Positions 20,795 through 54,029 of a stretch of 54,215 nucleotides of DNA are shown piece by piece (positions within the stretch are counted from its first letter, which is position 1; each line of letters starts with the position of its first letter). The position numbers and the translations under genes were made by a program. Where the stretch lies: contig JAFGTS010000021.1 in NCBI GenBank assembly GCA_016933965.1, forward strand, positions 1-54,215, written 5' to 3'. The stretch comes from Deltaproteobacteria bacterium. GTDB taxonomy: Bacteria > Desulfobacterota > Syntrophia > Syntrophales > UBA2210. The notes beneath the pieces were generated by a model. That model did not search any database. It was given only the letters and a program-made list of their open reading frames with translations, and was not told where the DNA came from.

Positions 20795-21580
20795 ATGGAA
20801 CAACAGGTGCTGGGAAGATCGCTCCCCCTGGTCATCGCTCACCGGGGTGATTCGGCCCATTTTCCGGAAAATACCATTCCCGCTTTCACGGCGGCCGTCG
20901 CGGCCGGTGCGGACATGATCGAGCTCGACGTGACCATGACGGCCGACGGACACCTCGTGGTGATCCACGACCGGACGGTGGACCGGACCACGGACGGAAC
21001 GGGACGCGTTTCGGACCTCACCCTCGCCCGGCTTCGGAAACTCGACGCCGGCAGTTGGAAAGGAAGCCGGTTCAGGGGGGTCAGGGTCCCAACCCTGGAG
21101 GAGGTCTTCGAGGCCGTCGGGAAAACGCTGCCCATCAACATAGAGATAAAAGCAGACGGGAAGGTGCCGGACGGCCTGCTCCCGATGCTCCTCGCCACCA
21201 TGCGGAAAGTGGGCATCTCCCGTTCCGTGATCCTCTCCAGCTTCAAGTTCACCCTGCTCGAACGCCTCAGGACACTGGACGGCGCCATAGCGGTCTCGGT
21301 CCTCAGCGACATTTCCGAACCCGTGAATGACATTGTGAAGAAGGTGCGCGCCGTCGGCGCCCTGTCATACAATCCGGACCAGAAACACCTTGACGAAGAG
21401 AAAATAGGACTGTTGCACGGCGAGGGGATACTGGTATTCCCCTGGTCGACGGGAAAGAGGAATACGGCAACGACGATGAAACGCCTGCTCTCGTGGGATA
21501 CCGACGGTTTTTTCGCCAATGATCCCCGATTGTTCCGGGAACTGTCGGCAGGTATCCGCCACCCACTGCAGAATGGCTGA
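20795..21580 (+). CDS. glycerophosphodiester phosphodiesterase
   Basis: The start is ATG 20795. The 261-residue TIM-barrel enzyme has the catalytic 'IAHRGDSAHFPENTIPAF' motif and 'IELDVTMTADGHLVVIHDRT', which carry the His/Glu/Asp residues that bind calcium and the diester. Further on, 'PINIEIKADG' is the third conserved block. It hydrolyses glycerophosphodiesters to glycerol-3-phosphate and an alcohol. There is no signal peptide, so it is cytoplasmic. It is convergent with the metal-binding selenoprotein candidate, with only nine bases between the stops. Confidence 0.95.
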   Translation: MEQQVLGRSLPLVIAHRGDSAHFPENTIPAFTAAVAAGADMIELDVTMTADGHLVVIHDRTVDRTTDGTGRVSDLTLARLRKLDAGSWKGSRFRGVRVPTLEEVFEAVGKTLPINIEIKADGKVPDGLLPMLLATMRKVGISRSVILSSFKFTLLERLRTLDGAIAVSVLSDISEPVNDIVKKVRAVGALSYNPDQKHLDEEKIGLLHGEGILVFPWSTGKRNTATTMKRLLSWDTDGFFANDPRLFRELSAGIRHPLQNG

Positions 21581-21589
21581 CGCCGGGGG

Positions 21590-21946
21590 TTACTGGGTTT
21601 TCGTGGACGGCTCCTCCGTGGGCGGAGCAGCCTCACCCGCGGGGAGCGCTTCTTCTTCCGGTGGGAGCTTTTCCACGGTGAACCGGGCATTCCTGAGCTT
21701 TTCGATTATGGGACCAAGGGCCGTCTTCTCATCATCGTACGTGATGGTAACCGTTCGTGTTTTGTAATCGGCCTTGTAACCGATAACACCTTCATGATTG
21801 TTCAGGATAGAACTTATCCTGGACTTCCCCGATCAGGTCCAGCACCCCTGGACCGACAGGGTCTCCGACGTTTCAACCGCCGCGGCGGCGCCGGCGGAGA
21901 GAAGGACCAGGAAGATACAGAAAAAAAACAGTGTTCGTTTCGTCAT
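21590..21946 (-). CDS. secreted heavy-metal-associated (MerP-like) protein, probable selenoprotein (CxxU)
   Basis: ATG 21946 follows GGAGGAAA. The frame gives a signal peptide (MTKRTLFFFCIFLVLLSAGA), then ETLSVQGCWT and an in-frame TGA at 21833-21835. It then continues SGKSRISSILNN, 'GVIGYKADYKTRTVTITYDD' and 'IIEKLRNARFTVEKL' to TAA at 21590. Read through, this is a 118-residue protein with a heavy-metal-associated domain in which the second cysteine of G-x-x-C-x-x-C is TGA (Cys35, Sec38). A 7-bp SECIS-like hairpin lies 18 nt after the TGA. The C-terminal ~25 residues are Pro/Glu-rich. It would bind or reduce a thiophilic metal in the periplasm. The alternative is a nonsense-mutated gene, but reading frame, motif position and hairpin all favour selenocysteine. 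Confidence 0.82.
21803..21821 (-). promoter_or_regulatory. bacterial SECIS-like hairpin
   Basis: On the mRNA, CAGGAUA-AGUUC-UAUCCUG forms a perfect 7-bp stem with a 5-nt loop whose second base is G. The apical loop begins 18 nt after the UGA at 21833-21835. Two further pairs (GU with AC) form beyond one mismatch. This matches the usual bacterial SECIS layout: a short stem directly after UGA with a G at the first or second loop position. Confidence 0.75.
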
Positions 21947-21982
21947 TGCCGGTTTCCTCCATATGTGGTGCCTGTGCGGGGG

Positions 21983-26697: not shown

Positions 26698-26726
26698 TTG
26701 ACAGCGGATGTGTTTACCAGTAAATA
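26698..26726 (+). promoter_or_regulatory. sigma70-type promoter for AOR operon
   Basis: A consensus TTGACA (26698-26703), a 17-bp spacer and TAAATA (26721-26726). Transcription would start near 26733, leaving a leader of about 125 nt before the AOR start codon. Confidence 0.62.
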
Positions 26727-26764
26727 TGACCATAGTCAAATTCATTTTAAGCATATAAAATTAA

Positions 26765-26822
26765 GTCCCGAACCATATCCGTCGCGGAAGACAGTTTTCT
26801 CCGAGGAGCATGGGGTCGGGAC
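26765..26822 (+). promoter_or_regulatory. structured 5' leader of AOR operon (possible riboswitch)
   Basis: GUCCCGA (26765-26771) pairs perfectly with UCGGGAC (26816-26822), and the helix can extend with ACCAU against AUGGGG. Inside are two small hairpins, UCCG-UCG-CGGA (26778-26788) and CUCCGAGGAG (26799-26808). The three-helix junction ends 37 nt before the AOR start codon. By context a molybdenum- or tungsten-cofactor sensor is possible; I do not recognise the known Moco consensus with certainty. Confidence 0.45.
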
Positions 26823-26859
26823 AGTGAAGCATGCCGCAGGTGATCAAAGGGGGAATCCG

Positions 26860-28731
26860 ATGGGGGGTAATTTCAACAAATTTCTCGAGTTGGATCTTGG
26901 CACGGGGAACATCGAGACCAGAAGTATTGACCCGGATTATTTCAGGCAGTATGTGGGGGGAAGCGCCCTGGCGGCCCGCATCTTTTACGACATGTTCGAT
27001 CCGGAGACAGGCCCTCTCGAACCGGACAGCCCTCTCCTGATCATGGCGGGCCCCCTGGTGGGCACCAATTTTCCCGGCACGTCACGCTTTGTCATCTGCG
27101 GTCGCTCACCCCTGACGGGGATCTGGAGCGAATCGGCATCGGGCGGTTTCTTCGGCTTGGAACTCAAGAGGGCCGGATACGACGGGATCATAATCCGCGG
27201 GAAATCGTCCCGACCCTGTTTCATCCGGATCGATAATGAGGAGGTGTCCATTCAGGATGCCGGTGAGCTGTGGGGAGCGGACACCTACGAGACGATCGAT
27301 CGAATTGGTGGAAAGGGCGGTGAGGGAAGACCGTTGAGGGTCATCGCCATCGGGCGGGCCGGTGAAAACGTGGTCAATATGGCCAACATCTGCAATGACA
27401 AGGCTCATTATATCGGCCGGACCGGCATGGGCGCCCTCATGGGAAGCAAGAACCTCAAGGCCGTCGCGGTCCGGGGAAGCGGTTCCGTGCCGGTCGCCGA
27501 CACGGAAGCCTACCGGACGGCCCGGGCGGCGGCCATGGAACACATAAAGGACTCCCTCATGTCCCAGACCTTCCATGAGCTGGGTACGGCGGCGGCCATG
27601 GAGCTCGGCATGACCACCGGCGACGTCCCCATCAAGAACTGGTCCGTCGGTGAGGATTACGCCCTGGGTTTCGCCGTGGGAGGAACGGCGCTCGCCTCGC
27701 AGCTCGTCAAAAAACGCGCCGCCTGCGCCGCCTGTCCCATCGCCTGCAAGCCCGTCGTGGAGGTCGACGACCCCGTTTACGGCATCCCCGAGGGACCGGG
27801 CCCGGAATACGAGACACTGGGCACCTTCGGGACAATGATCATGAACGACAATCTCAACGCCATCGCCAAGGCCAACGACCTGTGCAATCGGCTCGGCCTC
27901 GACACCATTTCCTGCGGCGCTACGATCGCCTTCATCATGGAAGTGTATGAAAAAGGACTTCTTTCCCGTCAGGACCTTGACGGCCTCGACCTTACCTGGG
28001 GAAACATCGACGCCGCCATCGAGCTCATCGGGAAGATCGCCCGCCGCGAAGGGTTCGGTGACCGAGCAGCCGGAGGAAGCCGGGCGCTGGCCCGGAGTAT
28101 CGGCGGTGAAGCCCTGGACTGCCTGGTGGAGGTGAAAGGGCTGGAGCTTCCCATGCACGACCCCCGGGGGTTCCACGGCATGGGCCTCGCATACATGAAC
28201 TCGAACCGCGGTGCCTGTCATCTCCAGCATTCCGCGCAGGCGACCGAACAGGGCATGGTCTCCTGGAACGAGGTGGGCCTCAAGGACGACTACCCCGGCC
28301 CCGACAGCACGGGAAAAGCGGAGGTCGTTTACATCAGCGAGAACATCGGACAGATGGCCAATGCCGTCTGCATCTGTCATTTCGTCCACTGGTGCATGAC
28401 GCTCGCCGACCTCGTCGATGGTCTCAACGCGGTGACCGGCTTTGATTACAGCCTTTCCGGCTTCATGGAAGCGGGAAAACGCGCATGGCTCCTGAAGCGG
28501 GCGATCAACAATCTCTACGGCATCACCGCGACGGACGACCGGCTCCCGAAGCGGGTCATGACCCCGCTTTCCGAAGGCGCCTCCCAGGGGATCATTCCCG
28601 ACATGGAGTTGATGAAGAGGGAATATTATTTGATACGCGGACTCAATGACAACGGCTATCCGACCGTGGAGACACTGGACTCATCGGGTCTGGGATATGT
28701 AAAACAACGACTATACCGGCAAGGAGGGTGA
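26860..28731 (+). CDS. aor: aldehyde ferredoxin oxidoreductase, tungstopterin type
   Basis: ATG 26860 (MGGNFNKFLELDLGTGNIET) follows AAAGGGGGAA; the longer frame from 26698 lies in the leader. The 623-residue protein has the AOR N-terminal domain ('YVGGSALAARIFYDMFD', 'LIMAGPLVGTNFPGTSRF') and domains 2-3. Cys289-x2-Cys292-x3-Cys296 (CAACPIACKP) and Cys504 (AVCICHF) fit the [4Fe-4S] ligands. It oxidises aldehydes to acids with ferredoxin, or reduces acids in reverse, using a tungsten bis-pterin cofactor. It leads an operon with two SCP2-domain proteins and an Fe-alcohol dehydrogenase. Confidence 0.95.
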   Translation: MGGNFNKFLELDLGTGNIETRSIDPDYFRQYVGGSALAARIFYDMFDPETGPLEPDSPLLIMAGPLVGTNFPGTSRFVICGRSPLTGIWSESASGGFFGLELKRAGYDGIIIRGKSSRPCFIRIDNEEVSIQDAGELWGADTYETIDRIGGKGGEGRPLRVIAIGRAGENVVNMANICNDKAHYIGRTGMGALMGSKNLKAVAVRGSGSVPVADTEAYRTARAAAMEHIKDSLMSQTFHELGTAAAMELGMTTGDVPIKNWSVGEDYALGFAVGGTALASQLVKKRAACAACPIACKPVVEVDDPVYGIPEGPGPEYETLGTFGTMIMNDNLNAIAKANDLCNRLGLDTISCGATIAFIMEVYEKGLLSRQDLDGLDLTWGNIDAAIELIGKIARREGFGDRAAGGSRALARSIGGEALDCLVEVKGLELPMHDPRGFHGMGLAYMNSNRGACHLQHSAQATEQGMVSWNEVGLKDDYPGPDSTGKAEVVYISENIGQMANAVCICHFVHWCMTLADLVDGLNAVTGFDYSLSGFMEAGKRAWLLKRAINNLYGITATDDRLPKRVMTPLSEGASQGIIPDMELMKREYYLIRGLNDNGYPTVETLDSSGLGYVKQRLYRQGG

Positions 28732-53760: not shown

Positions 53761-53837
<77 letters not shown>

Positions 53838-53942: not shown

Positions 53943-54029
53943 GCCGGAGTGGTGAAATTGGTAGACGCAGGGGACTCAAAATCCCCCGGACGCAAGTCCA
54001 TCTCGGTTCGATTCCGAGCTCCGGCACCA
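53943..54029 (+). tRNA. tRNA-Leu (anticodon CAA)
   Basis: The 87-nt class II tRNA has acceptor GCCGGAG/CTCCGGC, D arm GTGGTGAAATTGGTAGACGC, and anticodon stem GGGGA/TCCCC with loop CTCAAAA (anticodon CAA). A variable arm CGGACGCAAGTCCA, T arm GGTTCGATTCC and encoded CCA complete it. It has the consensus TATAAT promoter and a terminator 14 bp downstream. Confidence 0.96.

Follow-up and report, generated by a model that had tools for sequence, protein, structure and literature searches.

The window (the whole stretch of 54,215 nucleotides analysed here) carries on its minus strand a gene that encodes a small protein of 118 residues, with the start ATG at 21946 and the stop TAA at 21592-21590 (Table 1). 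The frame contains a single TGA, which is preceded by Cys35-Trp-Thr and followed by 80 sense codons, exactly as the original prediction described it. The original prediction named no strand, and the plus-strand reading of positions 21590-21946 was rejected because it gives nonsense. Gene callers would cut the product to a 37-residue peptide. The gene is flanked by a convergent glycerophosphodiester phosphodiesterase (GDPD) gene, which ends at 21580 with a TGA as its ordinary stop, and by a divergent gene for an amino-acid-type ABC permease. An Rfam scan of the whole window returned two tRNAs and nothing else. The N-terminus of the protein, MTKR-TLFFFCIFLVLLSAG-AAAA, resembles a signal peptide by eye, and a hydrophobic N-terminus with a terminal A-x-A is conserved across the family of homologues described below.

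Table 1. Features of the predicted selenoprotein locus and other genes of the window.
Feature	Position	Strand	Basis or remark
Predicted selenoprotein gene, 118 codons + TAA	21590..21946	minus	one in-frame TGA, codon 38; frame kept in 95 distinct homologues
TGA codon 38, predicted selenocysteine	21833..21835	minus	same-loop TGA in homologues; TGT (Cys) in two paralogues
Cys35, first residue of C-x-x-U	21842..21844	minus	Cys in 85/85 C-x-x-U members
Ribosome-binding site GGAGG, 5' of ATG	21956..21960	minus	from sequence
Probable Sec-type signal peptide, residues 1-23, MTKR...FFFCIFLVLLSAGAAAA	21878..21946	minus	by eye
HMA-type domain, residues 28-91, beta-alpha-beta-beta-alpha-beta	21674..21865	minus	PF00403 score, AlphaFold2, PDB match
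SECIS-like hairpin, 7 bp stem CAGGATA/TATCCTG, loop AGTTC	21803..21821	minus	
Aldehyde ferredoxin oxidoreductase family gene (AFOR_N + AFOR_C)	26698-28731	plus	
tRNA-Ala (GGC)	53762-53837	minus	near contig end
tRNA-Leu (CAA)	53943-54029	plus	near contig end

The host genome contains the complete machinery for selenocysteine insertion, and all four genes that the original prediction proposed to look for were found. The selA, selB and selD products score 607, 365 and 378 bits, respectively, and a tRNA-Sec gene (selC) with a UCA anticodon scores 56.9 bits. The tRNA-Sec gene, which was detected by Rfam and missed by ARAGORN, occupies positions 1-86 on the minus strand of its locus (L012, contig C32 of the host genome G000) and runs into the contig end, so that its last few bases are lost from view. 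The selD gene has its own in-frame TGA in the context SGAGUACK (locus L042, G000:C2, at about 1491 on the minus strand) and is thus a second selenoprotein gene in the same genome. Across the order Syntrophales, selB scores over its cut-off in 142 of the 155 genomes, and a comparison of the presence and absence of the family with those of selB therefore says little.

Profile searches recovered relatives of the protein in 104 of the 155 Syntrophales genomes and further ones elsewhere in the phylum. These whole-genome searches performed far better than a scan of genome contigs with short peptide patterns, which found 8 loci only. The named relatives of the locus come from Syntrophales/Syntrophaceae and from Deltaproteobacteria metagenome assemblies, which makes Syntrophales the most probable order of the host. 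One family member (L177, PACMSUGGFERVSSILK) lies in a closed genome of the order with 3,179,300 bases. Within the genome's own family, one TGA stands at the same place in all nine relatives found. A TGA falls in frame within the same loop in 95 distinct sequences among those read, of which 85 are of the G-C-x-x-U type, seven are of the C-x-U type and three lack the Cys residue. Cys35, Arg43 and Leu48 are invariant in the 85 C-x-x-U members.

Homologues with either Sec or Cys at the site, which the original prediction had called for, are thus both represented. Two paralogues (L109 and L126) align directly with the C-x-x-U members and contain the motif GCADC, with a TGT codon at the Sec position, and two further Cys forms (L146 and L147) belong to the C-x-U branch. 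The two GCADC paralogues each share a genome with a Sec paralogue (L109 with L136 and L126 with L103, in genomes G436 and G456), and these coexisting pairs provide a useful natural comparison of Sec and Cys. One homologue (L148, PAIVSLETASEAG) is devoid of any Cys/Sec motif. The homologues neither end at the TGA nor decay beyond it, and the region downstream of the TGA is under purifying selection with a median dN/dS of 0.20 (131 pairs).

The SECIS-like hairpin (CAGGATA-AGTTC-TATCCTG) begins 11 nt past the TGA, and its seven perfect pairs, the G at loop position 2 and the distance from the TGA all agree with the original description. The folding energy of the hairpin is unexceptional (z about -1), so that a single sequence proves little and the proof is supplied by conservation. 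All 85 C-x-x-U members have G as the second base of the loop; in these members, the six inner stem pairs are standard in 99-100% of the sequences and the outermost pair in 79%. In three of the stem pairs, both bases are third positions of codons, and these pairs take ranks 1, 2 and 4 among 153 such wobble-wobble pairs for pairing excess. Rank 3 is held by a pair outside the hairpin (41, 53; z 6.3), which indicates that relatedness alone can raise the score and that the scores of single pairs are not to be over-read.

Codon choice is the clearest sign of a SECIS element. The Arg residue at +5 is encoded by AGG in 82 of 85 cases, as against 41 of 254 Arg codons elsewhere in the same genes (Fisher p about 1e-43, relatedness ignored), and the Ile residue at +6 by ATA in 66 of 67 cases, as against 114 of 726 elsewhere (Fisher p about 1e-46, relatedness likewise ignored). 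Moreover, the stem pairing is lost and the hairpin absent in the two GCADC paralogues. The constraint on the hairpin, the codon bias and the loss of pairing in the Cys paralogues together form a pattern that is predicted by a SECIS element and not by protein constraint alone. In the C-x-U branch (L107, L124, L143, L065, L168, L166 and L070), 3 nt more separate the TGA and the hairpin, as if the Sec codon had moved by one codon in the 5' direction and the hairpin had kept its register relative to the helix.

These observations bear on two other readings of the TGA. A pseudogene or a sequencing error, with the TGA as a true stop, would account for the TGA itself and for the unremarkable hairpin energy, but this reading is already refuted by conservation, given the 95 distinct homologues, the Cys replacement, the purifying selection past the TGA and the constraint on the hairpin, and we regard its probability as negligible. 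Decoding of the TGA as Trp or some other standard residue, through a suppressor or a changed code, is just as improbable: no support for it was found, the neighbouring GDPD gene uses TGA as a stop, the full Sec machinery accompanies a SECIS-type hairpin, and the residue at the site in the two paralogues is Cys and not Trp. As judged from the comparative evidence, the gene thus almost certainly encodes a genuine UGA-decoded selenoprotein with the fold of a heavy-metal-associated (HMA) domain. The core of the original prediction, an exported HMA-fold selenoprotein with a Cys-x-x-Sec pair, survived every refuting test that was run.

The assignment to the HMA fold is based on several comparisons. 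The part of the protein after the TGA, taken alone, matches PF00403 (HMA) with 30.4 bits against a Pfam gathering threshold of 24.8. An AlphaFold2 model built from a 60-sequence alignment adopts the beta-alpha-beta-beta-alpha-beta topology with a mean pLDDT of 90.9, and its best match in the PDB is MerP (1osd; TM 0.83). A profile search of PDB sequences returned copper ATPase domains, MerP and CopZ, and when the family profile was compared with a profile of canonical HMA domains, taken from the fetched genomes, the probability was 99.3%.

The register of the Cys/Sec pair differs from that of the canonical ligands. The loop V-x-G-C-W-T-U-S-G aligns without gaps to V-x-G-M-T-C-x-x-C, which places Cys35 at the Met of GMxCxxC and Sec38 one residue after the first canonical Cys; this register comes from alignments, and compensating indels in the loop could in principle be hidden. 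The canonical Cys positions are filled by Thr37 and Gly40, so that both canonical Cys residues are lost and the protein lacks the GMxCxxC pattern. The original prediction was right that a TGA interrupts a MerP-like frame, but its placement of the TGA at the second Cys of C-x-x-C is incorrect for the family, in which the alignment displaces the pair by two residues. In the C-x-U members, the Sec residue coincides with the first canonical Cys position, and a protein of the UxxU type (L077, GMxUxxU) keeps both canonical positions. Three HMA-like proteins from other families of the phylum (L064, L067 and L068) contain the motif PGVVUGST, in which Sec occupies the first canonical Cys position by itself, with no Cys in the vicinity.

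MerP has the motif GMTCxxC and is located in mer operons. A MerP-like mercury binder with canonical chemistry, in which Sec takes the place of the second C-x-x-C Cys, would fit the best structural match and the scores, since MerP (TIGR02052) is the closest named family with 29.2 bits. That score falls far below the MerP cut-off of 92.55 bits, however, the ungapped alignment puts both Cys and Sec off the canonical Cys positions, no mer genes lie alongside, and the best MerA match in the host genome reaches 135 bits against a cut-off of 454, leaving the genome with no MerA over the cut-off. This reading is accordingly improbable. A MerT search of the genome was silent, as were its controls.

The gene neighbourhood does not discriminate between the possible functions. 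At most loci, the gene stands by itself, with maf and an opposite-strand gene resembling that for mannose-1-phosphate guanylyltransferase as its neighbours (names assigned by eye). In one branch of the family, at 6 loci, it comes directly after a same-strand gene for a periplasmic folding factor resembling PpiD/SurA, with its start overlapping that gene or a few nucleotides away. At L107, a gene for a flavin disulfide reductase of the dihydrolipoyl dehydrogenase/MerA class precedes the C-x-U form by about 50 nt. The family loci share no adjacent mer, cop or efflux gene. The mercury or copper role suggested in the original prediction is thus without contextual support, as no mer genes adjoin the locus, and it stays inferential.

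On the comparative evidence, SelB with Sec-tRNA(Sec) decodes the UGA at codon 38 as selenocysteine, guided by the downstream hairpin. The small protein would then be exported through its putative N-terminal signal peptide, and the mature protein is predicted with high confidence to fold as an HMA/MerP-type ferredoxin-like domain. Its beta1-alpha1 loop displays the Cys-x-x-Sec pair, displaced, by alignment, from the lost canonical Cys-x-x-Cys. In the cell envelope, Cys35 and Sec38 may form a thiol/selenol site that is very soft and readily oxidised.

The chemistry of this site can be read in two ways. The capture of soft metal or metalloid species, such as Hg, Cu(I), Ag or Se/As compounds, is favoured, at about an even chance; the missing canonical ligands and the lack of a conserved adjacent mer, cop or efflux gene count against it. 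A mainly redox function of Cys35-x-x-Sec38 in the envelope is a somewhat less probable alternative, in which the HMA fold would serve as a scaffold no longer engaged in metal trafficking, and the pair would carry out selenenylsulfide/dithiol exchange, reduce disulfides or remove peroxide. C-x-x-U is a usual redox motif of selenoproteins (PMC13188914), and the loss of the metal-ligand Cys residues, the folding factor directly 5' of the gene in the one branch and the flavin disulfide reductase at L107 are all consistent with such a function. It is opposed by the lack of a thioredoxin-like fold, by neighbours that are not conserved across the order, where the gene mostly stands alone, and by the MerP models, which 57 of 60 members match, if weakly. 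Since the reactive pair of the HMA domain has moved off the textbook C-x-x-C, the favoured metal capture and the redox function can be set against each other directly, as a test of what selenium has been recruited for on a metallochaperone fold.

Several HMA-type selenoproteins are already known, namely the UxxU protein (NF041115), the MerT/CopZ fusion (NF045683), a Sec-containing E1-E2 ATPase and two Global Ocean Sampling (GOS) 'MerP' sequences. The window protein scores below every NCBIfam selenoprotein cut-off, and far below those of the known HMA selenoproteins, whose models match 60 sampled family members only weakly. A C-x-x-U HMA protein is absent from the 2026 inventory of 119 families (PMC13188914) and from the 2006 list of 19 selenoproteins of Syntrophus aciditrophicus (PMC1794560), the deep-Sep paper makes no mention of one (PMC12013277), and no HMA selenoprotein with C-x-x-U turned up in a search of the literature. 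The proteins described here thus probably constitute an undescribed selenoprotein family, widespread in Syntrophales, in which a metallochaperone fold of the HMA type has lost both canonical Cys residues and presents a displaced Cys-x-x-Sec or Cys-x-Sec in the envelope as a new soft-metal, selenium or redox site. Such a family would enlarge the current list of about 119 prokaryotic selenoprotein families by a group that occurs in two thirds of the Syntrophales genomes searched.

The family resembles known proteins to different degrees. Selenoprotein W-like proteins (Rdx, PF10262) also have a C-x-x-U close to the domain's N-terminus; a link to them was not supported, as no Rdx match was obtained in 60 members and the fold is that of HMA, and the resemblance would be convergent. 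The MerT_CopZ_Se proteins (NF045683), described as MerT/CopZ fusion-like heavy metal transport proteins, are likewise selenoproteins with an HMA/CopZ-type part, but they are fusions with 235 profile positions, which few family members match, and those weakly. With MerP, the window protein shares a single HMA domain, the same predicted fold and probable export, and it differs in the absence of both canonical Cys residues and of mer neighbours. The two GOS 'MerP' selenoproteins are listed in Table 2 of their report with neither motif nor domain given (PMC2398784); compared by table entry alone, they share the MerP name and a selenocysteine with the window protein and could belong to the same C-x-x-U group. 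NF041115 (UxxU_metal_bind) corresponds to the 'putative mercuric reductase' selenoprotein of two publications (PMC9312934, PMC13188914) and is, like the window protein, a small selenoprotein of the HMA-type metal-binding fold with a soft-ligand pair in the beta1-alpha1 loop. The window protein scores 20.4 bits against its cut-off of 95 and does not have the two Sec residues that define it: the NF041115 proteins carry two Sec residues at the canonical positions (GMxUxxU), whereas the window protein combines one Sec with one Cys in a shifted register.
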